Positions 21,080-64,000 of a stretch of DNA of 64,000 nt are shown one piece after another; position 1 is the first letter of the stretch; the number at the start of each line of letters is the position of its first letter. Both the position numbers and the translations under genes were made by a program. The notes under the pieces were generated by a model, which made no database searches, had not been told where the DNA came from, and saw nothing but the letters and a program-made list of their open reading frames with translations. The stretch is taken from assembly GCA_014526335.1 (NCBI GenBank), contig JACTAT010000027.1, positions 3,399,231 to 3,463,230 on the forward strand. Direction: 5' to 3'. The stretch comes from Chrysaora quinquecirrha. Its lineage: Eukaryota; Cnidaria; Scyphozoa; Semaeostomeae; Pelagiidae.

Positions 21080-21232
21080 CTACTTAAAATATACAACATA
21101 GGCCGGGTATGATTGCATGTCATTGAAAATGACATACATTCTCGGCCAGTCGGTGTTATCGGTGGCTGAGTCACACCCGGCCGGTGGCTCCTTCAATCCA
21201 CGTTTGCCGTTTCCGGCCTGTCCAACAAGTAC
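21080..21232 (-). CDS. PARP gene, last coding exon (C-terminus of catalytic domain)
   Basis: After acceptor TTTTGCAG the exon reads VLVGQAGNGKRGLKEPPAGC, DSATDNTDWPRM, then YVIFNDMQSYPAYVVYFK and TAG. It matches the end of PARP domains (VLxG..PP..DS.xDN..P..YVIFxDxQxYPxYLI.F). The position of the PARP1 catalytic Glu appears to hold Met (PRM-YVIF), as expected for a mono-ADP-ribosyltransferase rather than a polymerase. 51 codons including stop; entry phase 0. Confidence 0.95.
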   Translation of the reverse strand, partial: VLVGQAGNGKRGLKEPPAGCDSATDNTDWPRMYVIFNDMQSYPAYVVYFK

Positions 21233-21529
21233 CTGCAAAAGAATAGGTCACTTTTTTACTTGAAGTTGTTTGTTTGGCCTGTGTTACTATGGGCAGTATG
21301 GGGGTGAAAGTTCTTACGTAAAGGGTCGTTTAAAATATGAATAATTTAGGGTCATGTTTTCCCTTGCCTTGAAAAAACTCGGATGCAAAGATCATTAAGG
21401 GTCCTTATCTCGAAAAATTAAAGTAAACCTTTCACAACACGAGAAAAAAGCATTCTGCGAAAGAATATTATTAGAGCATTAGCTAAATGCCAAAATAGCA
21501 AAGAAAACGTTAGTACTTTAGTCACAAAC

Positions 21530-21636
21530 CTTGGTAACAATTAAATGTCTCAAGCCATGGGCGTCGGGAGGTTTAGCATATTCAGCCGAATACGCAGACA
21601 TCGTGGCGAAATATACCCCGTACCCGTATCCGGCTG
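21530..21636 (-). CDS. PARP gene, exon with the catalytic Tyr loop
   Basis: Phase 1 in, phase 0 out (107 bp). Reads AGYGYGVYFATMSAYSAEYA then KPPDAHGLRHLIVTK, matching the PARP signature YGxGVYFAxxxxYSxxYxxPDxxGxxxM. The Tyr of GVYFA corresponds to the second residue of the H-Y-E triad, involved in NAD+ binding. The donor is AAG|GTTTGTG, weaker than the others. Confidence 0.95.
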
Positions 21637-21935
21637 CTGTTGAAGAAAAAGAAATATTGTAATTAAACAATACAGGCAAACTGACTGTAAACTTAAATGA
21701 TTTTTTTTATTCATAGGCACTTTATTACGTGCTATCACAATTTCTATATTGAGCCTAAGCCCCTAAGCCTCTCTTCAATTGAAAAATTAATAAGCATCCC
21801 CACTTCCTAGGTTCTCTAAATTTTGTTCAATACTTTATGTAATGTGAAGGTTAAAATAAAAAATTTCTTTTATCGATCATTTTGCAATGTCTGTAATGTT
21901 ATAACATCCCCGTCGACGAACATTTTTCTTCTTAA

Positions 21936-22270
21936 TACATGTTTTTTATTTTATAAGAAAGTACCAAAACTTTCTTGTGACTCAGTTTCTTAGCAAAAAT
22001 TTTGGAATGCAGTATTTCTAAGAATGCATATCTTAAGACACTGTATACATTGCACAAATACCAGGTTTTTCAAATAAAATAATCATTAGACTCGTTTAAT
22101 AGGAAGATGAACGACTGAACAGAAGAGCGAAAATAACATACAGAACATTAGGAGTGAAAGTATGAAACAAAACTTTCTTAAGTTTCAAGAATCCAGTATT
22201 TAACTTTCTTAAGTTTTTAAAATGTTGAGCACTACTTTCTTGCAAACCACTTTCTTGTAAAAAAAAGCTT
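21936..22270. mobile_element. MITE in a PARP intron, word ctttctt(g/a)
   Basis: Left end TACATGTTTTTTATTTTATAAG. Words actttcttaagttt and actttcttg recur, with ctttcttgtaaaaaaaagc at the right, where the outermost bases are lost. The related MITE end acgtgta at 22966-22972, next to the exon donor at 22984, belongs to another, unresolved copy. Confidence 0.6.
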
Positions 22271-22272
22271 TC

Positions 22273-22960
22273 ACAACGAAATGAACTCTAACATATTAAT
22301 GTGGCTTTTGAAATGAATCCTATTATTCTTAGTCTGTGATTTCTCGCTATGGAAAAAGTAGCTACTCTCGCATCGATGAATTTTGGGTCTCTTAAGTGAT
22401 TAATGAACAGCTTTATTTTCCAACTACAGACAGGGTTCTCTCTTTAAAAAGAAACTGGCTCAAAGGCTAACCTCAAAAATTTTATTACACATTTTGACTA
22501 AATCAACCATAGATATTTCAAATCAAGATGGGTCTAGTAAAATTTTGATCGAAAGTTAACTTTTCGGCATACATCATCAACATGCGAAAAATGTACTTTG
22601 AACCACTAAAAAACTTCGCCTAAACATTGTATGACCAAACTTATTGGATACATATTCTCTACAAAGCCAGAGCTTTCGAATGATGCAGATTGTTTATTAT
22701 TTGCCAAATTTTAAATTCGTAAATACGCTGTAATGATCATGTTAATTATGTTATTTTTTTTAATTGCTTCATGTTAATGTATTCTCAAGAAACTGGCCGG
22801 TCAGAGTACCAGCCTTAGTTGCATTAGCAGGGAACCCAAAACCATGACAAGTTATCTTATCGTTGGTTGAATTCGAATGAAGCTCCCTTCGGGAGAACAT
22901 CTTTAACATACATGCAGGGCCTCGGACTCTGATATTAAAATTATAAAAATTAGATTATAA
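22273..22960. other. PARP intron sequence, nothing recognised
   Basis: AT-rich intron between the exons at 21530 and 22985. A short open stretch on the minus strand (TNDKITCHGFGFPANATKAG) has no PARP match and no good splice pair, so it is not called. Confidence 0.4.
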
Positions 22961-22984
22961 AAAAAACGTGTAAAAAAAACTTAC

Positions 22985-23120
22985 AATGCTTCCCCGCATA
23001 GCTCCTATTGAAGCCAGACTCACAAATTTTTCGGGTGGAGTCTGGCCCCGTTCCATGGTATAAAAAGTTTCTCTCCCGACTCCCATGGCAAGAAGTGTTT
23101 TCCATGTTATTTTTCTTCAC
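22985..23120 (-). CDS. PARP gene, exon with the HGT motif
   Basis: After acceptor TTCTTAACAG the exon reads VKKNNMENTSCHGSRERN, FLYHGTGPDSTRKICES, GFNRSYAGKH and leaves in phase 1 (136 bp). YHGT carries the His of the catalytic triad, which binds NAD+; GFNRSYAG is the usual following motif of PARP10/14/15-like proteins. Entry phase 0 fits the previous exon. Confidence 0.96.
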
Positions 23121-23252
23121 CTGTTAAGAAAGGGCTCTTTACGAGACAATAATTCATAATGGCGCTATTCCACAGTTTTTCGAAAAATGATTTCAATTTT
23201 AAGAGTTTATCATTTTTGGTAACTGACTATGGTATAGGCTCTCCATACATAC

Positions 23253-23458
23253 CTTGTATGCTCTCCACAGCCCTGGGTTCTGGACCCTTTCTATCGCCAC
23301 AACAGAGGAAATTTTCCCCCGTGAACTGGCCATTACATGGTTTTTTATGTAATTGAACTCTTTTGAGTTACTTGCCAGTTCATCGAGGAAAAATTTCCTC
23401 TCAAGCCTGGGCCCAATTGTGGGCATCGGGGCCCAGTTCTCAGGTAAATCTTCTATTG
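23253..23458 (-). CDS. PARP gene, first exon of the catalytic domain
   Basis: Phase 1 in, phase 0 out (206 bp). Reads IEDLPENWAPMP, TIGPRLERKFFLDELASN, SKEFNYIKNHVMASSRGK, then ISSVVAIERVQNPGLWRAYK. The (V)xxIERVQNPxLWxxY motif marks the beginning of PARP catalytic domains, especially the PARP10/14/15 and TIPARP groups. Acceptor CTTCATTTAG, donor AAG|GTATGT. Entry phase 1 is that of all 61 microexons upstream. Confidence 0.96.
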
Positions 23459-23469
23459 CTAAATGAAGA

Positions 23470-24130: not shown

Positions 24131-24131
24131 T

Positions 24132-25655: not shown

Positions 25656-25883
25656 TTAAGCACCTTCTTTTTTGTGTTTAGGCAAATAGTCCTAAACTTC
25701 TAGTCCTTATGATGTTGATCCTATAGCGATTGAAAGTCTGAAAATTCATGAGGGATTTGACCATAAGGATTAAGGGTGTAAAATTTCACCCCCAGCGATT
25801 TTTCACGGTCTAATCCTTTATAGAATTTCAAACTTTTAACACCTATAAAATCAATATCTTAAGAACTTAGCTGAAATGGTCTA
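25656..25883. mobile_element. Second, partial copy of the same MITE
   Basis: Continues directly from the previous copy with the same inner sequence in opposite order and ends gctgaaatggtcta. Half-element abutting the first. Confidence 0.6.
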
Positions 25884-26865: not shown

Positions 26866-26889
26866 CTTTTTTCTTCAATCCTGAATAAG
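26866..26889 (-). CDS. Microexon, 24 bp (T)YSGLKKK
   Basis: Acceptor TTAACCCATAG, donor AAAG|GTATCA; phase 1 in and out. Last microexon before the PARP domain. Confidence 0.75.
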
Positions 26890-28574: not shown

Positions 28575-28587
28575 TTTATACACTTAC

Positions 28588-28608
28588 TCTTTATGATTTT
28601 CGGACGTT
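28588..28608 (-). CDS. Microexon, 21 bp (E)RPKIIK
   Basis: Acceptor CTTATTTTACAG, donor AAGA|GTAAGTG; phase 1. It belongs to the RP-x-I exon family with 39273 and 41365. The foldback element ends within about 15 nt of its donor. Confidence 0.8.
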
Positions 28609-29420: not shown

Positions 29421-29465
29421 CTTCTTCTTTGCCTTCGTCTAACGCCAATGAAAACAGGTCTTTTC
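29421..29465 (-). CDS. Microexon, 45 bp (G)KDLFSLALDEGKEE
   Basis: Acceptor GCAACCTCAAG, donor GAAG|GTAAAA; phase 1. An alternative acceptor 6 nt downstream would give 39 bp in the same frame. Confidence 0.75.
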
Positions 29466-30756: not shown

Positions 30757-30780
30757 CTTGTGTTTTATAATCTTTTGCTG
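30757..30780 (-). CDS. Microexon, 24 bp (A)AKDYKTQ
   Basis: Acceptor GCAACCTATAG, donor CAAG|GTATGA; phase 1. Diverged member of the ATDYKTQ family. Confidence 0.85.
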
Positions 30781-31497: not shown

Positions 31498-31521
31498 CTT
31501 CTTTTTTGCGATCTTCAGACA
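31498..31521 (-). CDS. Microexon, 24 bp (V)SEDRKKE
   Basis: Acceptor CAACCCATAG, donor GAAG|GTATGA; phase 1. Member of the SE/SKDRKKE family (eight copies). Confidence 0.85.
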
Positions 31522-31823: not shown

Positions 31824-31847
31824 CTTCTTTTTTGCGATCTTCAGACA
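31824..31847 (-). CDS. Microexon, 24 bp (V)SEDRKKE
   Basis: Second family copy, 326 bp from the previous one. Acceptor CTACCCATAG. Confidence 0.85.
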
Positions 31848-31977: not shown

Positions 31978-32001
31978 CTTGTGTTTTATAATCTGTTGCT
32001 G
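31978..32001 (-). CDS. Microexon, 24 bp (A)ATDYKTQ
   Basis: Acceptor CAACATATAG, donor CAAG|GTATGA; phase 1. The intron to the previous family exon is only 130 nt. Confidence 0.85.
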
Positions 32002-32397: not shown

Positions 32398-32430
32398 CTT
32401 CTTCTTCAGCGTCTTCAAAACCCCATGGAT
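32398..32430 (-). CDS. Microexon, 33 bp (D)PWGFEDAEEE
   Basis: Acceptor TCCTTTACAG, donor GAAG|GTAAAA; phase 1. Acidic; one copy per macro-unit. Confidence 0.88.
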
Positions 32431-33097: not shown

Positions 33098-33121
33098 CCC
33101 TTATTTTTAATCCTCTTGATG
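33098..33121 (-). CDS. Microexon, 24 bp (A)SRGLKIR
   Basis: Acceptor CAATGTATAG, donor AAGGG|GTATGA; phase 1. It looks like a diverged relative of the ATDYKTQ exon (same length and context). Confidence 0.75.
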
Positions 33122-33420: not shown

Positions 33421-33444
33421 CTTCTTTTTTGCGATCTTTAGACA
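33421..33444 (-). CDS. Microexon, 24 bp (V)SKDRKKE
   Basis: K variant (AAA for GAA). Same splice sites as the family. Confidence 0.85.
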
Positions 33445-33574: not shown

Positions 33575-33598
33575 CTTTTGTTTTATAATCTGTTGCTG
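33575..33598 (-). CDS. Microexon, 24 bp (A)ATDYKTK
   Basis: The acceptor is AACATAAAG instead of ATATAG; the final codon AAA replaces CAA. Phase 1. Confidence 0.78.
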
Positions 33599-33726: not shown

Positions 33727-33750
33727 CTTGTGTTTTATAATCTGTTGCTG
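33727..33750 (-). CDS. Microexon, 24 bp (A)ATDYKTQ
   Basis: Same as 31978. Confidence 0.85.
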
Positions 33751-34146: not shown

Positions 34147-34179
34147 CTTCTTCTTCAGCGTCTTCAAAACCCCATGGAT
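34147..34179 (-). CDS. Microexon, 33 bp (D)PWGFEDAEEE
   Basis: Same sequence as 32398; macro-unit 2. Confidence 0.88.
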
Positions 34180-34846: not shown

Positions 34847-34870
34847 CCCTTATTTTTAATCCTCTTGATG
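34847..34870 (-). CDS. Microexon, 24 bp (A)SRGLKIR
   Basis: Same sequence as 33098; acceptor GAATGTATAG. Confidence 0.75.
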
Positions 34871-35168: not shown

Positions 35169-35192
35169 CTTCTTTTTTGCGATCTTTAGACA
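35169..35192 (-). CDS. Microexon, 24 bp (V)SKDRKKE
   Basis: K variant, macro-unit 2. Confidence 0.85.
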
Positions 35193-35493: not shown

Positions 35494-35517
35494 CTTCTTT
35501 TTTGCGATCTTTAGACA
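35494..35517 (-). CDS. Microexon, 24 bp (V)SKDRKKE
   Basis: K variant, next 325-bp block. Confidence 0.85.
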
Positions 35518-35647: not shown

Positions 35648-35671
35648 CTTTTGTTTTATAATCTGTTGCTG
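35648..35671 (-). CDS. Microexon, 24 bp (A)ATDYKTK
   Basis: Same as 33575. Confidence 0.78.
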
Positions 35672-35801: not shown

Positions 35802-35825
35802 CTTGTGTTTTATAATCTGTTGCTG
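35802..35825 (-). CDS. Microexon, 24 bp (A)ATDYKTQ
   Basis: Same as 33727. Confidence 0.85.
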
Positions 35826-36221: not shown

Positions 36222-36254
36222 CTTCTTCTTCAGCGTCTTCAAAACCCCATGGAT
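36222..36254 (-). CDS. Microexon, 33 bp (D)PWGFEDAEEE
   Basis: Same as 34147; macro-unit 3. Confidence 0.88.
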
Positions 36255-36921: not shown

Positions 36922-36945
36922 CCCTTATTTTTAATCCTCTTGATG
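36922..36945 (-). CDS. Microexon, 24 bp (A)SRGLKIR
   Basis: Same as 34847. Confidence 0.75.
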
Positions 36946-37243: not shown

Positions 37244-37267
37244 CTTCTTTTTTGCGATCTTTAGACA
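37244..37267 (-). CDS. Microexon, 24 bp (V)SKDRKKE
   Basis: K variant. Confidence 0.85.
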
Positions 37268-37568: not shown

Positions 37569-37592
37569 CTTCTTTTTTGCGATCTTTAGACA
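37569..37592 (-). CDS. Microexon, 24 bp (V)SKDRKKE
   Basis: K variant. Confidence 0.85.
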
Positions 37593-37893: not shown

Positions 37894-37917
37894 CTTCTTT
37901 TTTGCGATCTTCAGACA
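37894..37917 (-). CDS. Microexon, 24 bp (V)SEDRKKE
   Basis: E variant with acceptor CAACCCATAG, as at 31498. Confidence 0.85.
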
Positions 37918-38223: not shown

Positions 38224-38256
38224 CTTGTGTTTTACTAGACGGCATCACTTTTTCAC
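38224..38256 (-). CDS. Microexon, 33 bp (G)EKVMPSSKTQ
   Basis: Acceptor CAACATATAG, donor CAAG|GTATGA; phase 1. It ends KTQ like the ATDYKTQ exons and may be an expanded relative. Confidence 0.82.
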
Positions 38257-38386: not shown

Positions 38387-38410
38387 CTTTTTTCTTCATT
38401 CGCTTTGCAA
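38387..38410 (-). CDS. Microexon, 24 bp (F)AKRMKKK
   Basis: Acceptor TTAATCTATAG, donor AAAG|GTATGA; phase 1. Basic. Confidence 0.8.
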
Positions 38411-39272: not shown

Positions 39273-39293
39273 AGTTTTCTATTACTGGGCGTT
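39273..39293 (-). CDS. Microexon, 21 bp (E)RPVIEN
   Basis: Acceptor TATTTCACAG, donor AACT|GTAAGT; phase 1. Same peptide core as 41365 with all four RPVI codons changed only at the third base. Confidence 0.85.
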
Positions 39294-40244: not shown

Positions 40245-40280
40245 CTTCATTATCGTGCGATCCAAGTTGCTTTTTAAAGA
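40245..40280 (-). CDS. Microexon, 36 bp (V)FKKQLGSHDNE
   Basis: Acceptor TATTTGTAG, donor GAAG|GTAAAA; phase 1. A second AG 11 nt inside would break the phase, so the upstream acceptor is chosen. Confidence 0.8.
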
Positions 40281-41220: not shown

Positions 41221-41250
41221 CTTCCAGTTTGTCCAGTTCGAGTGGATCTT
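41221..41250 (-). CDS. Microexon, 30 bp (E)DPLELDKLE
   Basis: Acceptor ACCCTTATAG, donor GAAG|GTAAAA; phase 1. Acidic. Confidence 0.87.
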
Positions 41251-41364: not shown

Positions 41365-41385
41365 CTTGTTCAATAACAGGCCGAT
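41365..41385 (-). CDS. Microexon, 21 bp (N)RPVIEQ
   Basis: Acceptor TTAACTTACAG, donor CAAG|GTAAAG; phase 1. Confidence 0.87.
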
Positions 41386-41895: not shown

Positions 41896-41925
41896 TTGGT
41901 GTCAAGGTAGTACACTCTGTTAGTT
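41896..41925 (-). CDS. Microexon, 30 bp (K)LTECTTLTP
   Basis: Acceptor TTTCTTTCAG, donor CCAA|GTAAGT; phase 1. Thr-rich. Confidence 0.83.
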
Positions 41926-42869: not shown

Positions 42870-42899
42870 TTTCTTCTCCTGTTTTCGTTGAAGGTCGAA
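42870..42899 (-). CDS. Microexon, 30 bp (I)RPSTKTGEE
   Basis: Acceptor TTAACTTTCAG, donor GAAA|GTAAGT; phase 1. Sister of 43456: same flanks and length. Confidence 0.87.
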
Positions 42900-43455: not shown

Positions 43456-43485
43456 TTTCTTCTAATAATGTCTTTTCATGTCGAC
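43456..43485 (-). CDS. Microexon, 30 bp (R)RHEKTLLEE
   Basis: Acceptor TTAACTTTCAG, donor GAAA|GTAAGT; phase 1. Duplicate of 42870 by flanks, with a diverged peptide. Confidence 0.87.
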
Positions 43486-43643: not shown

Positions 43644-43667
43644 GTTTTTTTGATAATTCTCTAGATT
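43644..43667 (-). CDS. Microexon, 24 bp (Q)SRELSKK
   Basis: Acceptor TTAATTTACAG, donor AAAC|GTAAGT; phase 1. Confidence 0.85.
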
Positions 43668-44275: not shown

Positions 44276-44308
44276 GCCGTATGTTGGATGCAGGTCGCCC
44301 TGGTCTTT
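44276..44308 (-). CDS. Microexon, 33 bp (K)RPGRPASNIR
   Basis: Acceptor TCAACTTACAG, donor CGGC|GTAAGT; phase 1. RPGRP is an AT-hook-like core, but a single short motif is weak evidence. Confidence 0.87.
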
Positions 44309-45286: not shown

Positions 45287-45313
45287 TTCTTTTACTGACA
45301 ATTCGTTGACTTG
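45287..45313 (-). CDS. Microexon, 27 bp (A)SQRIVSKR
   Basis: Acceptor TTTTCTTTAG, donor AGAA|GTAAGA; phase 1. Confidence 0.82.
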
Positions 45314-45943: not shown

Positions 45944-45988
45944 CGTTGTCATCAATGTGCACCGGGACGACCGGGACCACAGGGAGAT
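45944..45988 (-). CDS. Microexon, 45 bp (D)LPVVPVVPVHIDDN
   Basis: Acceptor ACTTTCTACAG, donor AACG|GTATGA; phase 1. PVV repeats then an acidic end. Confidence 0.88.
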
Positions 45989-46479: not shown

Positions 46480-46515
46480 CTTCGTCATCATCACTAATAA
46501 TGATAATAGGCGCAT
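46480..46515 (-). CDS. Microexon, 36 bp (D)APIIIISDDDE
   Basis: Acceptor TTTTTCCACAG, donor GAAG|GTATGA; phase 1. PIIIISDDDE resembles a SUMO-interacting motif (hydrophobic core followed by acidic residues). Confidence 0.9.
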
Positions 46516-48603: not shown

Positions 48604-48633
48604 CTGTTTCCCTGCTTATTATGACAAAAGGCT
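48604..48633 (-). CDS. Microexon, 30 bp (E)PFVIISRET
   Basis: Acceptor CGCCTCCACAG, donor ACAG|GTATGC; phase 1. The PFVII core recalls PIIII at 46480. Confidence 0.88.
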
Positions 48634-49565
48634 CTGTGGAGGCGAAATAAGAATTAAATGTCAAAGCATATTATAAAACAATATTATATAGGATATTATA
48701 AAAGTGCTCGGTATAATGTTATTCTTGGTATAATATTATTCGCGATGCAGGCCATCAATAATACGAGACAAGTCTTAAATTCCTAAATGTAGAAACAAAA
48801 GACTCCACTAAAATCACACCCCCGAGTAAAAACCCCGCTGGTTATTGCAAGTACGGTGGGGTAATTTCCAAAATCGGCAGTGAGGAAATTTTTTGGGGGG
48901 AGAAGCAAGATAATGTATCTGCTAAACCCCTGCCTTATCGAAAGTGAGCGAAGCATGTTCTGCCTGGTCCACTTATCGTTTGACAGTTTAATGACGATAA
49001 GTCACAAATTTCTTTCCTTACTCATAACAAAGATTCTCGAAATTATCATTTTGAAAAAAAAAAGCGGAGAAAACCAAAGAAACAAGGCGGGGAAAATATT
49101 TTAGGTCAAACCTTGCGGAGAAACAAACTTTCTTGGCAGGTCATCATTTTACTTTGGCGGGGAAGCGTTTCAGTGGGGTCGTTACAGGAAGTATAAAATC
49201 CTAAGATGACAAAAATTGCTTCAAAAAAGGCATTTTTGCAGTTTATAGACTTTTCTAAACATTGAAAACACGAGAGGCCCTGTGCTCCCTGATGAAGTAA
49301 TATTCTAAATCAAACAGCCAGAGACTCACTTCGCAGTTGGCATTTTCTGTTTTGGACATGTTGAACTTTCTTCAGCACCATAATTAACATATAATTATCA
49401 TGTGTGGTGAACAAAAACGATAGATTTTTCCACAAGTGGCATATCACAACCGATGGGGTTTTAATCCTATACTGCATGATCAGAGAGCCAACGACGATTC
49501 CACTCAGCTGAAGAGCTCAATGAAGTTGTCGAGTAGTAATATATAAGATGCATGTCAAAATAAGA

Positions 49566-49923
49566 TACACTCTTTTTGTATAAGAACAATTTTATTAGAA
49601 CACGAGCCTGGAGTTTGCCCATATTTTAAGAACAAATTAAGAGCTAGCTGAGACTGGTCCTTTTCAAAAGCCATAAGAACATCAGCTAAATAAGTATAAT
49701 ACAATCGGATTGAATGTGAAAAGCAAGCAAACAAAGAAATAGACATGAATTCTACATTTTCCCACACATCTAGTACCACCCAAGGCAGTCATTGAAATAA
49801 TATAGATTTCTAAGTAACCAAGGAAATAAGAGCATATTAAGAACATTGCAGGCTCTAAAACGGCAAAATTGAAGAACAGCCAGCCTTGATCAAAATTTCC
49901 TGGTTCTTATCAAAAAGAGTGTA
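49566..49923. mobile_element. MITE captured in the satellite monomer (first copy)
   Basis: Ends TACACTCTTTTTGTATAAGAAC / GTTCTTATCAAAAAGAGTGTA, with recurrent taagaac words inside. It is present at the same place in every monomer, so it was inserted before amplification. Confidence 0.85.
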
Positions 49924-49989
49924 TTTGATTAAAGAGCTAATGTTTTATCGTGCTATTGGAGAATATTCTAAATGTATTCTTAATCATAC

Positions 49990-50159
49990 CACTTCTTTTG
50001 ACTTCTGTTTGAACTTCTGTGGAAAGTAAAGAGATACGATTGTTAAACAGCCAAATATGAAAAAATAAGTAATGATCAATGCGAGTAACATCGTGCAAAT
50101 GCAAAAGATTAATAATGCTTTGTATATCATACCTTCTAAATTTTCATTGACATCGGCAG
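49990..50159 (-). CDS. Satellite microexon pair 1 (last in the transcript)
   Basis: Two 27-bp phase-1 exons. Y at 50133-50159 reads (A)ADVNENLE (acceptor CCATTAACAG, donor GAAG|GTATGA). X at 49990-50016 reads (E)VQTEVKRS (acceptor TTTCCACAG, donor AGTG|GTATGA). The 116-nt intron between them is constant in all monomers. Confidence 0.88.
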
Positions 50160-51373
50160 CTGTTAATGGTTGAAAATATGAATATCATTGTTACACAATT
50201 TAATAAACTTTAGAAAATAAAACATTTTCAAAAGCATCGTCAGTTTAAAATTGCAAACATCAAGTTTGCTATTAACAGTGGAAACATTTTCGGGCATAGC
50301 TACTTAGAAGCTTTTTTAAATTTCGAGGAGTGGCAGACGAAAAATGCTTTTAAGTATGCCCGAAAATGTTTTCATTGTTCATAGTAATATTAAAGTTCGA
50401 TGCCGGTCTTATTTTCGATTGTTTTCACATTTTGGCAACTTGCGAATTTTCAGGAATTTTTATAAATATGGGTAGGCATTTTGCTGTTTGTACTGTACAT
50501 CCCTCTCCGAAACGTAGTGAAGTACCCCATCTGGGCTTTTTCAAGTCAATGTGGATCTTGAGCAGTAATGCAGACGGGGCGGTGGCCAAGATGGCAAAAT
50601 AACCTTCGCAGAAGCGTTTCTGCAGTTTATAGACTTTTCTAAACATTGAAAACACGAGAGGCCCTGTGCTCCCTGATGAAGTAATATTCTAAATCAAACA
50701 GCCAGAGACTCTCTTCGCAGTTGGCATTTTCTGTTTTGGACATGTTGAACTTTCTTCAGCACCATAATTAACATATAATTATCATGTGTGGTGAACAAAA
50801 CGATAGATTTTTCCACAAGTGGCATATCACAACTGATGGGGTTTTAATCCTATGCTGCATGATCAGAGAGCCAACGACGATTCCACTCAGCTGAAGAGCT
50901 CAATGAAGTCGTCGAGTAGTAATATATAATATGCATGTCAAAATAAGATACACTCTTTTTGTATAAGAACAATTTTATTAGAACACGAGCCTGGAGTTTG
51001 CCCATATTTTAAGAACAAATTAAGAGCTAGCTGAGACTGGTCCTTTTCAAAAGCCATAAGAACATCAGCTAAATAAGTATAATACAATCGGATTGAATGT
51101 GAAAAGCAAGCAAACAAAGAAATAGACATGAATTCTACATTTTCCCACACATCTAGTACCACCCAAGGCAGTCATTGAAATAATATAGATTTCTAAGTAA
51201 CCAAGGAAATAAGAGCATATTAAGAACATTGCAGGCTCTAAAACGGCAAAAATTGAAGAACAGCCAGCCTTGATCAAAATTTCCTGGTTCTTATCAAAAA
51301 GAGTGTATTTGATTAAAGAGCTAATGTTTTATCGTGCTATTGGAGAATATTCTAAATGTATTCTTAATCATAC

Positions 51374-51543
51374 CACTTCTTTTGACTTCTGTTTGAACTT
51401 CTGTGGAAAGTAAAGAGATACGATTGTTAAACAGCTAAATATGAAAAAATAAGTAATGATCAATGCGAGTAACATCGTGCAAATGCAAAAGATTAATAAT
51501 GCTTTGTATATCATACCTTCTAAATTTTCATTGACATCGGCAG
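51374..51543 (-). CDS. Satellite microexon pair 2
   Basis: X 51374-51400, Y 51517-51543. Identical exon sequences to pair 1. Confidence 0.87.
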
Positions 51544-52757
51544 CTGTTAATGGTTGAAAATATGAATATCATTGTTACACAATTTAATAAACTTTAGAAA
51601 ATAAAACATTTTCAAAAGCATCGTCAGTTTAAAATTGCAAACATCAAGTTTGCTATTAACAGTGGAAACATTTTCGGGCATAGCTACTTAGAAGCTTTTT
51701 TAAATTTCGAGGAGTGGCAGACGAAAAATGCTTTTAAGTATGCCCGAAAATGTTTTCATTGTTCATAGTAATATTAAAGTTCGATGCCGGTCTTATTTTC
51801 GATTGTTTTCACATTTTGGCAACTTGCGAATTTTCAGGAATTTTTATAAATATGGGTAGGCATTTTGCTGTTTGTACTGTACATCCCTCTCCGAAACGTA
51901 GTGAAGTACCCCATCTGGGCTTTTTCAAGTCAATGTGGATCTTGAGCAGTAATGCAGACGGGGCGGTGGCCAAGATGGCAAAATAACCTTCGCAGAAGCG
52001 TTTCTGCAGTTTATAGACTTTTCTAAACATTGAAAACACGAGAGGCCCTGTGCTCCCTGATGAAGTAATATTCTAAATCAAACAGCCAGAGACTCTCTTC
52101 GCAGTTGGCATTTTCTGTTTTGGACATGTTGAACTTTCTTCAGCACCATAATTAACATATAATTATCATGTGTGGTGAACAAAACGATAGATTTTTCCAC
52201 AAGTGGCATATCACAACCGATGGGGTTTTAATCCTATGCTGCATGATCAGAGAGCCAACGACGATTCCACTCAGCTGAAGAGCTCAATGAAGTCGTCGAG
52301 TAGTAATATATAATATGCATGTCAAAATAAGATACACTCTTTTTGTATAAGAACAATTTTATTAGAACACGAGCCTGGAGTTTGCCCATATTTTAAGAAC
52401 AAATTAAGAGCTAGCTGAGACTGGTCCTTTTCAAAAGCCATAAGAACATCAGCTAAATAAGTATAATACAATCGGATTGAATGTGAAAAGCAAGCAAACA
52501 AAGAAATAGACATGAATTCTACATTTTCCCACACATCTAGTACCACCCAAGGCAGTCATTGAAATAATATAGATTTCTAAGTAACCAAGGAAATAAGAGC
52601 ATATTAAGAACATTGCAGGCTCTAAAACGGCAAAAATTGAAGAACAGCCAGCCTTGATCAAAATTTCCTGGTTCTTATCAAAAAGAGTGTATTTGATTAA
52701 AGAGCTAATGTTTTATCGTGCTATTGGAGAATATTCTAAATGTATTCTTAATCATAC

Positions 52758-52927
52758 CACTTCTTTTGACTTCTGTTTGAACTTCTGTGGAAAGTAAAGA
52801 GATACGATTGTTAAACAGCCAAATATGAAAAAATAAGTAATGATCAATGCGAGTAACATCGTGCAAATGCAAAAGATTAATAATGCTTTGTATATCATAC
52901 CTTCTAAATTTTCATTGACATCGGCAG
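52758..52927 (-). CDS. Satellite microexon pair 3
   Basis: X 52758-52784, Y 52901-52927. Identical. Confidence 0.87.
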
Positions 52928-54140
52928 CTGTTAATGGTTGAAAATATGAATATCATTGTTACACAATTTAATAAACTTTAGAAAATAAAACATTTTCAAA
53001 AGCATCGTCAGTTTAAAATTGCAAACATCAAGTTTGCTATTAACAGTGGAAACATTTTCGGGCATAGCTACTTAGAAGCTTTTTTAAATTTCGAGGAGTG
53101 GCAGACGAAAAATGCTTTTAAGTATGCCCGAAAATGTTTTCATTGTTCATAGTAATATTAAAGTTCGATGCCGGTCTTATTTTCGATTGTTTTCACATTT
53201 TGGCAACTTGCGAATTTTCAGGAATTTTTATAAATATGGGTAGGCATTTTGCTGTTTGTACTGTACATCCCTCTCCGAAACGTAGTGAAGTACCCCATCT
53301 GGGCTTTTTCAAGTCAATGTGGATCTTGAGCAGTAATGCAGACGGGGCGGTGGCCAAGATGGCAAAATAACCTTCGCAGAAGCGTTTCTGCAGTTTATAG
53401 ACTTTTCTAAACATTGAAAACACGAGAGGCCCTGTGCTCCCTGATGAAGTAATATTCTAAATCAAACAGCCAGAGACTCTCTTCGCAGTTGGCATTTTCT
53501 GTTTTGGACATGTTGAACTTTCTTCAGCACCATAATTAACATATAATTATCATGTGTGGTGAACAAAACGATAGATTTTTCCACAAGTGGCATATCACAA
53601 CTGATGGGGTTTTAATCCTATGCTGCATGATCAGAGAGCCAACGACGATTCCACTCAGCTGAAGAGCTCAATGAAGTCGTCGAGTAGTAATATATAATAT
53701 GCATGTCAAAATAAGATACACTCTTTTTGTATAAGAACAATTTTATTAGAACACGAGCCTGGAGTTTGCCCATATTTTAAGAACAAATTAAGAGCTAGCT
53801 GAGACTGGTCCTTTTCAAAAGCCATAAGAACATCAGCTAAATAAGTATAATACAATCGGATTGAATGTGAAAAGCAAGCAAACAAAGAAATAGACATGAA
53901 TTCTACATTTTCCCACACATCTAGTACCACCCAAGGCAGTCATTGAAATAATATAGATTTCTAAGTAACCAAGGAAATAAGAGCATATTAAGAACATTGC
54001 AGGCTCTAAAACGGCAAAATTGAAGAACAGCCAGCCTTGATCAAAATTTCCTGGTTCTTATCAAAAAGAGTGTATTTGATTAAAGAGCTAATGTTTTATC
54101 GTGCTATTGGAGAATATTCTAAATATATTCTTAATCATAC

Positions 54141-54310
54141 CACTTCTTTTGACTTCTGTTTGAACTTCTGTGGAAAGTAAAGAGATACGATTGTTAAACA
54201 GCCAAATATGAAAAAATAAGTAATGATCAATGCGAGTAACATCGTGCAAATGCAAAAGATTAATAATGCTTTGTATATCATACCTTCTAAATTTTCATTG
54301 ACATCGGCAG
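54141..54310 (-). CDS. Satellite microexon pair 4
   Basis: X 54141-54167, Y 54284-54310. Identical. Confidence 0.87.
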
Positions 54311-55523
54311 CTGTTAATGGTTGAAAATATGAATATCATTGTTACACAATTTAATAAACTTTAGAAAATAAAACATTTTTCAAAAGCATCGTCAGTTTAA
54401 AATTGCAAACATCAAGTTTGCTATTAACAGTGGAAACATTTTCGGGCATAGCTACTTAGAAGCTTTTTTAAATTTCGAGGAGTGGCAGACGAAAAATGCT
54501 TTTAAGTATGCCCGAAAATGTTTTCATTGTTCATAGTAATATTAAAGTTCGATGCCGGTCTTATTTTCGATTGTTTTCACATTTTGGCAACTTGCGAATT
54601 TTCAGGAATTTTTATAAATATGGGTAGGCATTTTGCTGTTTGTACTGTACATCCCTCTCCGAAACGTAGTGAAGTACCCCATCTGGGCTTTTTCAAGTCA
54701 ATGTGGATCTTGAGCAGTAATGCAGACGGGGCGGTGGCCAAGATGGCAAAATAACCTTCGCAGAAGCGTTTCTGCAGTTTATAGACTTTTCTAAACATTG
54801 AAAACACGAGAGGCCCTGTGCTCCCTGATGAAGTAATATTCTAAATCAAACAGCCAGAGACTCTCTTCGCAGTTGGCATTTTCTGTTTTGGACATGTTGA
54901 ACTTTCTTCAGCACCATAATTAACATATAATTATCATGTGTGGTGAACAAAACGATAGATTTTTCCACAAGTGGCATATCACAACTGATGGGGTTTTAAT
55001 CCTATACTGCATGATCAGAGAGCCAACGACGATTCCACTCAGCTGAAGAGCTCAATGAAGTCGTCGAGTAGTAATATATAATATGCATGTCAAAATAAGA
55101 TACACTCTTTTTGTATAAGAACAATTTTATTAGAACACGAGCCTGGAGTTTGCCCATATTTTAAGAACAAATTAAGAGCTAGCTGAGACTGGTCCTTTTC
55201 AAAAGCCATAAGAACATCAGCTAAATAAGTAATACAATCGGATTGAATGTGAAAAGCAAGCAAACAAAGAAATAGACATGAATTCTACATTTTCCCACAC
55301 ATCTAGTACCACCCAAGGCAGTCATTGAAATAATATAGATTTCTAAGTAACCAAGGAAATAAGAGCATATTAAGAACATTGCAGGCTCTAAAACGGCAAA
55401 AATTGAAGAACAGCCAGCCTTGATCAAAATTTCCTGGTTCTTATCAAAAAGAGTGTATTTGATTAAAGAGCTAATGTTTTATCGTGCTATTGGAGAATAT
55501 TCTAAATGTATTCTTAATCATAC

Positions 55524-55693
55524 CACTTCTTTTGACTTCTGTTTGAACTTCTGTGGAAAGTAAAGAGATACGATTGTTAAACAGCCAAATATGAAAAAAT
55601 AAGTAATGATCAATGCGAGTAACATCGTGCAAATGCAAAAGATTAATAATGCTTTGTATATCATACCTTCTAAATTTTCATTGACATCGGCAG
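55524..55693 (-). CDS. Satellite microexon pair 5
   Basis: X 55524-55550, Y 55667-55693. Identical. Confidence 0.87.
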
Positions 55694-56908
55694 CTGTTAA
55701 TGGTTGAAAATATGAATATCATTGTTACACAATTTAATAAACTTTAGAAAATAAAACATTTTTCAAAAGCATCGTCAGTTTAAAATTGCAAACATCAAGT
55801 TTGCTATTAACAGTGGAAACATTTTCGGGCATAGCTACTTAGAAGCTTTTTTAAATTTCGAGGAGTGGCAGACGAAAAATGCTTTTAAGTATGCCCGAAA
55901 ATGTTTTCATTGTTCATAGTAATATTAAAGTTCGATGCCGGTCTTATTTTCGATTGTTTTCACATTTTGGCAACTTGCGAATTTTCAGGAATTTTTATAA
56001 ATATGGGTAGGCATTTTGCTGTTTGTACTGTACATCCCTCTCCGAAACGTAGTGAAGTACCCCATCTGGGCTTTTTCAAGTCAATGTGGATCTTGAGCAG
56101 TAATGCAGACGGGGCGGTGGCCAAGATGGCAAAATAACCTTCGCAGAAGCGTTTCTGCAGTTTATAGACTTTTCTAAACATTGAAAACACGAGAGGCCCT
56201 GTGCTCCCTGATGAAGTAATATTCTAAATCAAACAGCCAGAGACTCTCTTCGCAGTTGGCATTTTCTGTTTTGGACATGTTGAACTTTCTTCAGCACCAT
56301 AATTAACATATAATTATCATGTGTGGTGAACAAAACGATAGATTTTTCCACAAGTGGCATATCACAACTGATGGGGTTTTAATCCTATACTGCATGATCA
56401 GAGAGCCAACGACGATTCCACTCAGCTGAAGAGCTCAATGAAGTCGTCGAGTAGTAATATATAATATGCATGTCAAAATAAGATACACTCTTTTTGTATA
56501 AGAACAATTTTATTAGAACACGAGCCTGGAGTTTGCCCATATTTTAAGAACAAATTAAGAGCTAGCTGAGACTGGTCCTTTTCAAAAGCCATAAGAACAT
56601 CAGCTAAATAAGTATAATACAATCGGATTGAATGTGAAAAGCAAGCAAACAAAGAAATAGACATGAATTCTACATTTTCCCACACATCTAGTACCACCCA
56701 AGGCAGTCATTGAAATAATATAGATTTCTAAGTAACCAAGGAAATAAGAGCATATTAAGAACATTGCAGGCTCTAAAACGGCAAAAATTGAAGAACAGCC
56801 AGCCTTGATCAAAATTTCCTGGTTCTTATCAAAAAGAGTGTATTTGATTAAAGAGCTAATGTTTTATCGTGCTATTGGAGAATATTCTAAATGTATTCTT
56901 AATCATAC

Positions 56909-57078
56909 CACTTCTTTTGACTTCTGTTTGAACTTCTGTGGAAAGTAAAGAGATACGATTGTTAAACAGCTAAATATGAAAAAATAAGTAATGATCAATG
57001 CGAGTAACATCGTGCAAATGCAAAAGATTAATAATGCTTTGTATATCATACCTTCTAAATTTTCATTGACATCGGCAG
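56909..57078 (-). CDS. Satellite microexon pair 6
   Basis: X 56909-56935, Y 57052-57078. Identical. Confidence 0.87.
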
Positions 57079-58293
57079 CTGTTAATGGTTGAAAATATGA
57101 ATATCATTGTTACACAATTTAATAAACTTTAGAAAATAAAACATTTTTCAAAAGCATCGTCAGTTTAAAATTGCAAACATCAAGTTTGCTATTAACAGTG
57201 GAAACATTTTCGGGCATAGCTACTTAGAAGCTTTTTTAAATTTCGAGGAGTGGCAGACGAAAAATGCTTTTAAGTATGCCCGAAAATGTTTTCATTGTTC
57301 ATAGTAATATTAAAGTTCGATGCCGGTCTTATTTTCGATTGTTTTCACATTTTGGCAACTTGCGAATTTTCAGGAATTTTTATAAATATGGGTAGGCATT
57401 TTGCTGTTTGTACTGTACATCCCTCTCCGAAACGTAGTGAAGTACCCCATCTGGGCTTTTTCAAGTCAATGTGGATCTTGAGCAGTAATGCAGACGGGGC
57501 GGTGGCCAAGATGGCAAAATAACCTTCGCAGAAGCGTTTCTGCAGTTTATAGACTTTTCTAAACATTGAAAACACGAGAGGCCCTGTGCTCCCTGATGAA
57601 GTAATATTCTAAATCAAACAGCCAGAGACTCTCTTCGCAGTTGGCATTTTCTGTTTTGGACATGTTGCACTTTCTTCAGCACCATAATTAACATATAATT
57701 ATCATGTGTGGTGAACAAAACGATAGATTTTTCCACAAGTGGCATATCACAACCGATGGGGTTTTCATCCTATACTGCATGATCAGAGAGCCAACGACGA
57801 TTCCACTCAGCTGAAGAGCTCAATGAAGTCGTCGAGTAGTAATATATAATATGCATGTCAAAATAAGATACACTCTTTTTGTATAAGAACAATTTTATTA
57901 GAACACGAGCCTGGAGTTTGCCCATATTTTAAGAACAAATTAAGAGCTAGCTGAGACTGGTCCTTTTCAAAAGCCATAAGAACATCAGCTAAATAAGTAT
58001 AATACAATCGGATTGAATGTGAAAAGCAAGCAAACAAAGAAATAGACATGAATTCTACATTTTCCCACACATCTAGTACCACCCAAGGCAGTCATTGAAA
58101 TAATATAGATTTCTAAGTAACCAAGGAAATAAGAGCATATTAAGAACATTGCAGGCTCTAAAACGGCAAAAATTGAAGAACAGCCAGCCTTGATCAAAAT
58201 TTCCTGGTTCTTATCAAAAAGAGTGTATTTGATTAAAGAGCTAATGTTTTATCGTGCTATTGGAGAATATTCTAAATGTATTCTTAATCATAC

Positions 58294-58463
58294 CACTTCT
58301 TTTGACTTCTGTTTGAACTTCTGTGGAAAGTAAAGAGATACGATTGTTAAACAGCTAAATATGAAAAAATAAGTAATGATCAATGCGAGTAACATCGTGC
58401 AAATGCAAAAGATTAATAATGCTTTGTATATCATACCTTCTAAATTTTCATTGACATCGGCAG
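58294..58463 (-). CDS. Satellite microexon pair 7
   Basis: X 58294-58320, Y 58437-58463. Identical. Confidence 0.87.
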
Positions 58464-59678
58464 CTGTTAATGGTTGAAAATATGAATATCATTGTTACAC
58501 AATTTAATAAACTTTAGAAAATAAAACATTTTTCAAAAGCATCGTCAGTTTAAAATTGCAAACATCAAGTTTGCTATTAACAGTGGAAACATTTTCGGGC
58601 ATAGCTACTTAGAAGCTTTTTTAAATTTCGAGGAGTGGCAGACGAAAAATGCTTTTAAGTATGCCCGAAAATGTTTTCATTGTTCATAGTAATATTAAAG
58701 TTCGATGCCGGTCTTATTTTCGATTGTTTTCACATTTTGGCAACTTGCGAATTTTCAGGAATTTTTATAAATATGGGTAGGCATTTTGCTGTTTGTACTG
58801 TACATCCCTCTCCGAAACGTAGTGAAGTACCCCATCTGGGCTTTTTCAAGTCAATGTGGATCTTGAGCAGTAATGCAGACGGGGCGGTGGCCAAGATGGC
58901 AAAATAACCTTCGCAGAAGCGTTTCTGCAGTTTATAGACTTTTCTAAACATTGAAAACACGAGAGGCCCTGTGCTCCCTGATGAAGTAATATTCTAAATC
59001 AAACAGCCAGAGACTCTCTTCGCAGTTGGCATTTTCTGTTTTGGACATGTTGAACTTTCTTCAGCACCATAATTAACATATAATTATCATGTGTGGTGAA
59101 CAAAACGATAGATTTTTCCACAAGTGGCATATCACAACCGATGGGGTTTTAATCCTATACTGCATGATCAGAGAGCCAACGACGATTCCACTCAGCTGAA
59201 GAGCTCAATGAAGTCGTCGAGTAGTAATATATAATATGCATGTCAAAATAAGATACACTCTTTTTGTATAAGAACAATTTTATTAGAACACGAGCCTGGA
59301 GTTTGCCCATATTTTAAGAACAAATTAAGAGCTAGCTGAGACTGGTCCTTTTCAAAAGCCATAAGAACATCAGCTAAATAAGTATAATACAATCGGATTG
59401 AATGTGAAAAGCAAGCAAACAAAGAAATAGACATGAATTCTACATTTTCCCACACATCTAGTACCACCCAAGGCAGTCATTGAAATAATATAGATTTCTA
59501 AGTAACCAAGGAAATAAGAGCATATTAAGAACATTGCAGGCTCTAAAACGGCAAAAATTGAAGAACAGCCAGCCTTGATCAAAATTTCCTGGTTCTTATC
59601 AAAAAGAGTGTATTTGATTAAAGAGCTAATGTTTTATCGTGCTATTGGAGAATATTCTAAATGTATTCTTAATCATAC

Positions 59679-59848
59679 CACTTCTTTTGACTTCTGTTTG
59701 AACTTCTGTGGAAAGTAAAGAGATACGATTGTTAAACAGCTAAATATGAAAAAATAAGTAATGATCAATGCGAGTAACATCGTGCAAATGCAAAAGATTA
59801 ATAATGCTTTGTATATCATACCTTCTAAATTTTCATTGACATCGGCAG
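59679..59848 (-). CDS. Satellite microexon pair 8
   Basis: X 59679-59705, Y 59822-59848. Identical. Confidence 0.87.
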
Positions 59849-61064
59849 CTGTTAATGGTTGAAAATATGAATATCATTGTTACACAATTTAATAAACTTT
59901 AGAAAATAAAACATTTTTCAAAAGCATCGTCAGTTTAAAATTGCAAACATCAAGTTTGCTATTAACAGTGGAAACATTTTCGGGCATAGCTACTTAGAAG
60001 CTTTTTTAAATTTCGAGGAGTGGCAGACGAAAAATGCTTTTAAGTATGCCCGAAAATGTTTTCATTGTTCATAGTAATATTAAAGTTCGATGCCGGTCTT
60101 ATTTTCGATTGTTTTCACATTTTTGGCAACTTGCGAATTTTCAGGAATTTTTATAAATATGGGTAGGCATTTTGCTGTTTGTACTGTACATCCCTCTCCG
60201 AAACGTAGTGAAGTACCCCATCTGGGCTTTTTCAAGTCAATGTGGATCTTGAGCAGTAATGCAGACGGGGCGGTGGCCAAGATGGCAAAATAACCTTCGC
60301 AGAAGCGTTTCTGCAGTTTATAGACTTTTCTAAACATTGAAAACACGAGAGGCCCTGTGCTCCCTGATGAAGTAATATTCTAAATCAAACAGCCAGAGAC
60401 TCTCTTCGCAGTTGGCATTTTCTGTTTTGGACATGTTGAACTTTCTTCAGCACCATAATTAACATATAATTATCATGTGTGGTGAACAAAACGATAGATT
60501 TTTCCACAAGTGGCATATCACAACCGATGGGGTTTTCATCCTATACTGCATGATCAGAGAGCCAACGACGATTCCACTCAGCTGAAGAGCTCAATGAAGT
60601 CGTCGAGTAGTAATATATAATATGCATGTCAAAATAAGATACACTCTTTTTGTATAAGAACAATTTTATTAGAACACGAGCCTGGAGTTTGCCCATATTT
60701 TAAGAACAAATTAAGAGCTAGCTGAGACTGGTCCTTTTCAAAAGCCATAAGAACATCAGCTAAATAAGTATAATACAATCGGATTGAATGTGAAAAGCAA
60801 GCAAACAAAGAAATAGACATGAATTCTACATTTTCCCACACATCTAGTACCACCCAAGGCAGTCATTGAAATAATATAGATTTCTAAGTAACCAAGGAAA
60901 TAAGAGCATATTAAGAACATTGCAGGCTCTAAAACGGCAAAAATTGAAGAACAGCCAGCCTTGATCAAAATTTCCTGGTTCTTATCAAAAAGAGTGTATT
61001 TGATTAAAGAGCTAATGTTTTATCGTGCTATTGGAGAATATTCTAAATGTATTCTTAATCATAC

Positions 61065-61234
61065 CACTTCTTTTGACTTCTGTTTGAACTTCTGTGGAAA
61101 GTAAAGAGATACGATTGTTAAACAACTAAATATGAAAAAATAAGTAATGATCAATGCGAGTAACATCGTGCAAATGCAAAAGATTAATAATGCTTTGTAT
61201 ATCATACCTTCTAAATTTTCATTGACATCGGCAG
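61065..61234 (-). CDS. Satellite microexon pair 9
   Basis: X 61065-61091, Y 61208-61234. Identical. Confidence 0.87.
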
Positions 61235-62444
61235 CTGTTAATGGTTGAAAATATGAATATCATTGTTACACAATTTAATAAACTTTAGAAAATAAAACAT
61301 TTTTCAAAAGCATCGTCAGTTTAAAATTGCAAACATCAAGTTTGCTATTAACAGTGGAAACATTTTCGGGCATAGCTACTTAGAAGCTTTTTAAATTTCG
61401 AGGAGTGGCAGACGAAAATGCTTTTAAGTATGCCCGAAAATGTTTTCATTGTTCATAGTAATATTAAAGTTCGATGCCGGTCTTATTTTCGATTGTTTTC
61501 ACATTTTGGCAACTTGCGAATTTTCAGGAATTTTTATAAATATGGGTAGGCATTTTGCTGTTTGTACTGTACATCCCTCTCCGAAACGTAGTGAAGTACC
61601 CCATCTGGGCTTTTTCAAGTCAATGTGGATCTTGAGCAGTAATGCAGACGGGGCGGTGGCCAAGATGGCAAAATAACCTTCGCAGAAGCGTTTCTGCAGT
61701 TTATAGACTTTTCTAAACATTGAAAACACGAGAGGCCCTGTGCTCCCTGATGAAGTAATATTCTAAATCAAACAGCCAGAGACTCTCTTCGCAGTTGGCA
61801 TTTTCTGTTTTGGACATGTTGAACTTTCTTCAGCACCATAATTAACATATAATTATCATGTGTGGTGAACAAAACGATAGATTTTTCCACAAGTGGCATA
61901 TCACAACTGATGGGGTTTTAATCCTATACTGCATGATCAGAGAGCCAACGACGATTCCACTCAGCTGAAGAGCTCAATGAAGTCGTCGAGTAGTAATATA
62001 TAATATATGTCAAAATAAGATACACTCTTTTGTATAAGAACAATTTTATTAGAACACGAGCCTGGAGTTTGCCCATATTTTAAGAACAAATTAAGAGCTA
62101 GCTGAGACTGGTCCTTTTCAAAAGCCATAAGAACATCAGCTAAATAAGTATAATACAATCGGATTGAATGTGAAAAGCAAGCAAACAAAGAAATAGACAT
62201 GAATTCTACATTTTCCCACACATCTAGTACCACCCAAGGCAGTCATTGAAATAATATAGATTTCTAAGTAACCAAGGAAATAAGAGCATATTAAGAACAT
62301 TGCAGGCTCTAAAACGGCAAAAATTGAAGAACAGCCAGCCTTGATCAAAATTTCCTGGTTCTTATCAAAAAGAGTGTATTTGATTAAAGAGCTAATGTTT
62401 TATCGTGCTATTGGAGAATATTCTAAATGTATTCTTAATCATAC

Positions 62445-62614
62445 CACTTCTTTTGACTTCTGTTTGAACTTCTGTGGAAAGTAAAGAGATACGATTGTTA
62501 AACAGCTAAATATGAAAAAATAAGTAATGATCAATGCGAGTAACATCGTGCAAATGCAAAAGATTAATAATGCTTTGTATATCATACCTTCTAAATTTTC
62601 ATTGACATCGGCAG
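62445..62614 (-). CDS. Satellite microexon pair 10
   Basis: X 62445-62471, Y 62588-62614. Identical exons although this monomer has lost a few intron bases. Confidence 0.87.
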
Positions 62615-63826
62615 CTGTTAATGGTTGAAAATATGAATATCATTGTTACACAATTTAATAAACTTTAGAAAATAAAACATTTTTCAAAAGCATCGTCAGT
62701 TTAAAATTGCAAACATCAAGTTTGCTATTAACAGTGGAAACATTTTCGGGCATAGCTACTTAGAAGCTTTTTTAAATTTCGAGGAGTGGCAGACGAAAAT
62801 GCTTTTAAGTATGCCCGAAAATGTTTTCATTGTTCATAGTAATATTAAAGTTCGATGCCGGTCTTATTTTCGATTGTTTTCACATTTTGGCAACTTGCGA
62901 ATTTTCAGGAATTTTTATAAATATGGGTAGGCATTTTGCTGTTTGTACTGTACATCCCTCTCCGAAACGTAGTGAAGTACCCCATCTGGGCTTTTTCAAG
63001 TCAATGTGGATCTTGAGCAGTAATGCAGACGGGGCGGTGGCCAAGATGGCAAAATAACCTTCGCAGAAGCGTTTCTGCAGTTTATAGACTTTTCTAAACA
63101 TTGAAAACACGAGAGGCCCTGTGCTCCCTGATGAAGTAATATTCTAAATCAAACAGCCAGAGACTCTCTTCGCAGTTGGCATTTTCTGTTTTGGACATGT
63201 TGAACTTTCTTCAGCACCATAATTAACATATAATTATCATGTGTGGTGAACAAAACGATAGATTTTTCCACAAGTGGCATATCACAACCGATGGGGTTTT
63301 AATCCTATACTGCATGATCAGAGAGCCAGCGACGATTCCACTCAGCTGAAGAGCTCAATGAAGTCGTCGAGTAGTAATATATAATATGCATGTCAAAATA
63401 AGATACACTCTTTTTGTATAAGAACAATTTTATTAGAACACGAGCCTGGAGTTTGCCCATATTTTAAGAACAAATTAAGAGCTAGCTGAGACTGGTCCTT
63501 TTCAAAAGCCATAAGAACATCAGCTAAATAAGTAATACAATTGGATTGAATGTGAAAAGCAAGCAAACAAAGAAATAGACATGAATTCTACATTTTCCCA
63601 CACATCTAGTACCACCCAAGGCAGTCATTGAAATAATATAGATTTCTAAGTAACCAAGGAAATAAGAGCATATTAAGAACATTGCAGGCTCTAAAACGGC
63701 AAAAATTGAAGAACAGCCAGCCTTGATCAAAATTTCATGGTTCTTATCAAAAAGAGTGTATTTGATTAAAGAGCTAATGCTTTATCGTGCTATTGGAGAA
63801 TATTCTAAATGTATTCTTAATCATAC

Positions 63827-63996
63827 CACTTCTTTTGACTTCTGTTTGAACTTCTGTGGAAAGTAAAGAGATACGATTGTTAAACAACTAAATATGAAAA
63901 AATAAGTAATGATGAATGCGAGTAACATCGTGCAAATGCAAAAGATTAATAATGCTTTGTATATCATACCTTCTATGTTTTCATTGACATCGGCAG
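63827..63996 (-). CDS. Satellite microexon pair 11 (first visible in the transcript)
   Basis: X 63827-63853 is identical to the rest. Y 63970-63996 differs in two bases and reads (A)ADVNENIE, a conservative L-to-I change with a synonymous AAT-to-AAC change beside it. Confidence 0.86.
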
Positions 63997-64000
63997 CTGT

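Follow-up and report, generated by a model that had tools for sequence, protein, structure and literature searches.

A predicted run of same-phase microexons leading into a PARP15/14-like domain in the scyphozoan Chrysaora quinquecirrha

The closest described parallels to the locus reported here are genes built from many short exons that share a single phase. In the bicycle genes of aphids, nearly every internal exon begins at codon position 2, which is termed exon phase 2 (PMC9168663). The aphid megacycle gene has 118 exons in ~100 kb and was apparently grown by internal tandem duplication; it contains over 100 microexons and an N-terminal secretion signal, with no obvious CYC motif (PMC9168663). 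Schistosome micro-exon genes (MEGs) have short exons, mostly divisible by three, that are separated by introns ranging from 100 bp to nearly 5,000 bp and are subject to duplication and alternative splicing (PMC10526429). The stretch analyzed here, referred to as the window, comprises 64,000 nucleotides of Chrysaora quinquecirrha (GCA_014526335.1, contig JACTAT010000027.1, here C213:3399231-3463230; assembly of 328 Mb in 740 contigs). Its minus strand carries a long series of phase-1 microexon-like segments that runs into the exons of a PARP catalytic domain. Coordinates are given on the window scale, and all exons of this locus lie on the minus strand.

Like the internal exons of bicycle genes, each microexon here opens with the second and third bases of a codon (intron phase 1), but the encoded tether has no CYC motif, in the usual sense of that term, with 1 Cys in 538 residues. 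As in schistosome MEGs, short segments make up much of the coding sequence: ~548 of 802 codons lie in 21-45-nt segments, and because these segments were kept for being divisible by three, the unselected figure for that property is 58/62. The protein products differ. Those of bicycle and megacycle are secreted and effector-like, with no enzyme domain reported in the part of the source used here (PMC9168663), whereas this locus has a PARP domain. Unlike this locus, schistosome MEGs encode secreted proteins with a signal peptide and at most 189 residues, most of their exons are 15 bp, and the part of the source used here mentions no PARP domain (PMC10526429). An earlier note on this DNA had drawn the schistosome comparison, which is fair, although the aphid genes are the closest precedent. 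The note also took a microexon-built linker joined to a PARP to be undescribed. Narrow term searches of open-access papers (most subscription journals lie outside these) found no PARP of this build, whereas the same-phase microexon architecture itself has precedent. What would be new is the occurrence of this device in an ADP-ribosyltransferase, within a fresh tandem array. In muscle, the PEVK region of titin and triadin likewise derive a charged extensible or disordered region from many small frame-safe exons, but these exons are larger and the proteins are not ADP-ribosyltransferases.

In a first scan, general splice matrices were used to search for AG...GT segments between 15 and 60 nt long, with phase and frame left unconstrained. 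Within 23458-64000 on the minus strand, length is divisible by three in 58/62 candidates and 55 are open in phase 1, compared with 14/47 divisible by three on the plus strand of the same stretch and a mean of 6.9/22.5 in ten dinucleotide shuffles. Copies were corrected for by merging same-length candidates at least 75% identical into one. After merging, 24/28 candidates are divisible by three, 22 of those 24 being open in phase 1, while three control stretches treated in the same way yield 4/15, 5/14, and 5/14 (pooled 14/43, with 7 of the pooled 14 open). The length bias has p = 1.6e-8 against one third and p = 9e-6 against the pooled controls (Fisher), and openness in phase 1 exceeds that of the controls with p = 0.006 (Fisher). 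Because the bias in length and phase exceeds the controls even after copies are merged, the phase-1 microexon-like series is real and chance does not explain it.

A second scan, with matrices retrained on confident exons, returned 76 non-overlapping candidates, of which 62 have lengths divisible by three and, among those 62, 60 read open in phase 1. The other 14 consist of one weak 35-nt site present ten times in the tandem unit and four singles. Removal of a 102-nt candidate and addition of the window-edge copy at 63970-63996, whose scoring needs upstream sequence, give the final set of 60 segments of 21-45 nt running from 63996 down to 26866, all bounded by AG...GT and open in phase 1, with lengths divisible by three. 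Introns among 59 of them span 114-2,088 nt (median 491), and the GC content of the 27 unique exons in this group is 0.385 versus 0.273 for their flanks. The earlier note's description of the boundaries, lengths, phase, and absence of stops, as well as its exclusion of chance, is borne out. Its count of at least 61 microexons is revised to 60, with only 28 distinct sequences (27 among 59 segments plus the first one at the window edge); 22 of the 60 are near-copies inside an 11-fold 1,384-bp tandem repeat. The independent events are fewer than the earlier count, and much of the number reflects recent tandem copying.

The series enters a four-exon PARP domain in the same phase, as the note had also claimed. 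PARP exon 1 (23253-23458), entered in phase 1 and containing IEDLPENWAPM, is supported by PARP15 alignment and Pfam; exon 2 (22985-23120; FLYHGTGPDS, GFNRS), exon 3 (21530-21636; AGYGYGVYFA), and exon 4 (21080-21232; YVIFNDMQSYPAYVVYFK followed by the stop codon) are supported by structure match and genome search. By similarity, the catalytic part is a PARP15/14-like ARTD domain, with a match to Pfam PF00644 at 6e-22, above the cut-off, and PARP15 (5e-35) and PARP14 (2e-30) as the nearest solved structures. The HGT histidine and the YFA tyrosine align with the H and Y of PARP15. In the region of the third triad residue, YPEYLITF of PARP15 aligns to YPAYVVYF here, one position of which we take to be that residue. 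The H-Y-E triad has its third residue replaced in mono-transferases (PMC10789625), and the domain is predicted to catalyze mono-ADP-ribosylation.

Vertebrate macro-PARPs include the closest relatives of this catalytic domain, PARP15 and PARP14, but differ in their accessory domains: neither a macrodomain nor a WWE domain was found in the window plus 80 kb upstream when the genome's own macro and WWE regions served as tblastn queries at E values up to 0.01. Two other loci, on C113, do have macrodomain frames, a WWE-like match, and PARP exons side by side, the WWE assignment being 0.5 bit under the cut-off at one locus and made by similarity at the other. In protein homolog searches, the PARP domain alone had 3 matches among 37 candidates (Latimeria, Rotaria, and one more), and the 802-residue prediction, judged by its PARP part, had 0/161, with no full-length ortholog found in that search; for the macro-PARP frame of the same genome, 7,995 candidates were scored and 77 matched, the top match having 41% identity.

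Two exons that may encode a ubiquitin-like (Ubl-like) piece lie just upstream of the window, at 65166-65293 (phase 0 to phase 2; RIPINKGESIRAFKKKVAARFGIPPGRNFVLVDHLGREKQNLK) and 65007-65044 (ending in phase 1; WDKHIYIKMHAE). Their joint translation matches Pfam ubiquitin PF00240 with an E value of 0.011 and 16 bits, where the cut-off is 25.4. The microexon series begins at 63996, at the window edge, directly after these exons, and together the two Ubl-like exons, 60 microexons, and four PARP exons form one frame of 802 codons plus stop. Farther upstream on this strand, in the 80 kb beyond the window edge (with one 500-base gap), the retrained scan gave 7 candidates, and no candidate combined a length divisible by three with an open phase-1 reading. 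None of the 58 successive microexon junctions produces a stop, whereas 9/756 conceivable junctions do, all after the exon ending in T. Skipping is thus predicted to keep the frame, which supports the earlier proposal that any exon can be skipped or added without frame loss. The best PARP15 alignments begin at LPENW, seven residues ahead of the first Met of PARP exon 1 (PARP14 alignments begin later), and the open stretch upstream of this internal Met contains no other Met; an upstream exon is therefore likely needed.

These features make it probable that the locus is one gene, in which 60 same-phase microexons between a Ubl-like piece and a PARP15/14-like domain are predicted to be spliced into one protein. 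The series is likely to have expanded through tandem duplication of units that each join exon and intron, and since every segment is phase 1-1, duplication keeps the frame. The array at 49414-63996 consists of 11 units of ~1,384 bp, each with one microexon pair. Ten units are mutually 99.1-100% identical; the end of the array falls inside the last one, which for that reason is 81% identical as cut. A ~360-bp element that recurs on many contigs sits in the long intron of each unit. The first microexon of the series, ADVNENIE (63970-63996), has its acceptor at the window edge and was scored with upstream sequence, as was, in addition to the retrained scan, the VQTEVKRS copy at 63827-63853; all other microexons listed here come from the retrained scan. 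The remaining array exons are ADVNENLE at 62588-62614, 61208-61234, 59822-59848, 58437-58463, 57052-57078, 55667-55693, 54284-54310, 52901-52927, 51517-51543, and 50133-50159, and VQTEVKRS at 62445-62471, 61065-61091, 59679-59705, 58294-58320, 56909-56935, 55524-55550, 54141-54167, 52758-52784, 51374-51400, and 49990-50016.

Downstream of the array follow PFVIISRET (48604-48633), APIIIISDDDE (46480-46515), LPVVPVVPVHIDDN (45944-45988), SQRIVSKR (45287-45313), RPGRPASNIR (44276-44308), SRELSKK (43644-43667), RHEKTLLEE (43456-43485), RPSTKTGEE (42870-42899), LTECTTLTP (41896-41925), RPVIEQ (41365-41385), DPLELDKLE (41221-41250), FKKQLGSHDNE (40245-40280), RPVIEN (39273-39293; ends in T), and AKRMKKK (38387-38410). 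A second repeat family, with ~325-bp units, occupies roughly 30.8-38.3 kb of the window. A genome search with its unit gave at least 19 matches, every one of them on C213, with 15 inside the window and 4 near PARP paralogs. The microexons between 38256 and 30757 are EKVMPSSKTQ (38224-38256); SEDRKKE (37894-37917, 31824-31847, and 31498-31521); SKDRKKE (37569-37592, 37244-37267, 35494-35517, 35169-35192, and 33421-33444); SRGLKIR (36922-36945, 34847-34870, and 33098-33121); PWGFEDAEEE (36222-36254, 34147-34179, and 32398-32430); ATDYKTQ (35802-35825, 33727-33750, and 31978-32001); ATDYKTK, with an AAG acceptor (35648-35671 and 33575-33598); and AKDYKTQ (30757-30780). The series closes with KDLFSLALDEGKEE (29421-29465; weak AAG acceptor), RPKIIK (28588-28608), and YSGLKKK (26866-26889), the last microexon before the PARP exons. 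Elsewhere in the window, other repeats include a 24-bp array at ~1525-3900, with listed families of 74-78 overlapping copies, and an inverted pair of VPHVPTLF-type minisatellites (9807-10650 and 12516-13437) in which several frames are open.

Paralogous loci on the same contig have a related arrangement. Among the 38 matches listed by a genome search with the PARP domain, 32 are on C213, 4 of which are this gene. Upstream of the paralog at C213:4375k, on the same strand, are the phase-1 microexons QRVEPLPKR, SARSKIQK, GPFTKVD, AVQTE, and RQVNVNQEQ, as well as Ubl-like exons whose phases, by reading, are those of the main locus. The paralog at 4576k is preceded by SIILETSGEE (strict scan), SPSPIRISETE (relaxed scan), and Ubl-like exons, while at the adjacent locus, L027, Ubl-like exons are accompanied by a degenerate PARP exon. 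At two paralog loci, PARP exons thus share their strand with phase-1 microexons and related Ubl-like exons, which by sequence supports the single-gene reading. APIIIISDDDE and the paralogous SIILETSGEE align together with their flanks and differ by three bases in length (36 vs 33 nt); a second flank-aligned exon pair differs by six (48 vs 42 nt).

Several further repeats lie at or near these relatives. PARP exon 2-like pieces recur every ~890 bp at C213 4369-4377 kb (minus) and 4579-4581 kb (plus), forming an exon array of the catalytic part, although several matches have a stop inside and are perhaps intronic. Repeated Ubl-like exon pieces (GKRLSKLKWEVARNYGIEQPFYLADWRGTKLTTLK and variants) occur at window 769-1269 (plus) and in L027, possibly belonging to a second gene of the same Ubl family. 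L041/L042 and the start of L043, near the paralogs, hold a 48-bp coding-like minisatellite (LKRKKSDQPSEEVNLN).

A number of observations weigh against a single gene of this build. The splice scores of the microexons are modest, three exons have AAG acceptors, and 3.4 kb without a retained microexon separate 26866 from PARP exon 1. The Ubl match is under the Pfam cut-off, three relatives match other families, all below the cut-off, and the Ubl piece, searched against the whole genome, matched only itself. No first coding exon was found: the candidates that lie beyond the window on its upstream side, at 65300-84000, are weak, including the best-scoring short ones, two 26-nt near-copies (70848-70873 and 70471-70496; phase 1 to 0), and none is claimed. 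Three distant PARP loci lack a comparable run: on the PARP strand, the 40 kb searched around each of the two C113 PARPs and the C429 PARP hold 0, 1, and 0 phase-1 candidates of up to 60 nt. At the 4375k paralog, the strict scan finds 5/9 candidates in phase on the PARP strand but 3/5 on the opposite strand, and 2/6 are in phase at L043. One microexon-like paralog copy has, by reading, a broken donor, and two of the four 325-bp-unit matches outside the window are downstream of the nearest matched PARP exons (the other two are upstream). Finally, L019 and L020 resemble PARP exon 1 only from the internal ATG, as a separate start would predict; their phase-1 reading from an upstream AG nevertheless stays open.

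If the single-gene reading is correct, the 60 microexons would be spliced into a charged, disordered tether of ~550 residues between the Ubl-like piece and the PARP domain. As predicted, the tether has 548 residues, with 106 Lys+Arg and 132 Asp+Glu, and falls on the disordered side of a charge-hydropathy analysis, the PARP domain lying just on the folded side. Each microexon would act as a cassette of 7-15 residues, such as the basic KDRKKE and AKRMKKK or APIIIISDDDE, which we take to resemble a SUMO-interacting motif. Skipping or adding exons would alter the reach and docking motifs of the tether and leave the catalytic frame untouched. Tentatively, the locus may form a splice-programmed targeting array, in which each cell or individual would select its own combination of the 60 frame-safe cassettes to redirect a single PARP domain and new cassettes would still arise by tandem duplication, as an intracellular counterpart to Dscam-like diversity.

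A real contender is that the same gene uses every microexon constitutively, giving a fixed long tether whose length would vary only by the number of tandem units. The 99.1-100% identity of those units fits recent length change, the tether is predicted to be disordered, and the sequence gives no sign of skipping; set against this, skipping of very short exons is common in other systems. It is improbable, by comparison, that the locus is divided between a Ubl-microexon gene that ends before 23458 and a separate short PARP gene starting at the internal Met of exon 1. The 3.4-kb gap before exon 1 and the sharing of exon 1 by L019 and L020 only from that ATG on are what this division would lead one to expect, but PARP15, this genome's own macro-PARP, and paralog L027 retain related residues before the internal Met, exon 1 is open upstream without another Met, and its acceptor matches the same phase 1.

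The remaining alternative depends on how exons and introns have diverged. In eight hand-chosen microexon pairs, exon differences number 46 against 30.6 expected (p = 6e-4, odds ratio 1.87), with 2/8 pairs going the opposite way, and over the full set of 30 alignable but non-independent pairs, identity is 0.72 for exons versus 0.80 for the flanking introns. For PARP exons 1-2, the ratio of nonsynonymous to synonymous change (dN/dS) between paralogs is ~0.10 when counted from MPTI on, and 0.17 and 0.15 when eight unalignable codons are kept. In L019 and L020, 22/65 and 29/65 synonymous sites differ from the window, compared with 5/110 and 8/110 positions of intron 1 (window 23121-23252). Because synonymous sites of the PARP exons also exceed intron 1, the faster change of exons than of introns is not read as positive selection and was rejected as proof of diversifying selection, the PARP exons combining that excess with a dN/dS of ~0.10. 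It is very unlikely that the array is a decayed or non-coding tandem repeat with splice-like sites left over from duplication: few ancestors account for most copies, one paralog copy has a broken donor, and exons changed more than flanking introns in the eight chosen pairs, yet 22/24 merged frame-blind candidates are phase-1 open versus 7/14 in controls, length changes in threes in two exon pairs, and PARP exons 1-2 are conserved between paralogs at the low dN/dS given above.

In vertebrates, the PARP family is involved in conflicts with viruses. Vertebrate PARP14 and PARP15 have undergone repeated gene birth and loss with rapid turnover (PMC4038475), which makes an immune role for the gene described here no more than a reasonable guess. 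Same-phase microexon genes have so far been known from aphids and schistosomes, where their products are secreted and effector-like. The predicted gene would extend this device to an ADP-ribosyltransferase, and duplication of exons in a fixed phase is a suggested route by which a disordered tether may be lengthened cassette by cassette. The locus offers a concrete place to ask whether microexon choice re-targets ADP-ribosylation. Gene finders are likely to miss linkers of this kind, and the architectures of invertebrate PARPs may be under-described.

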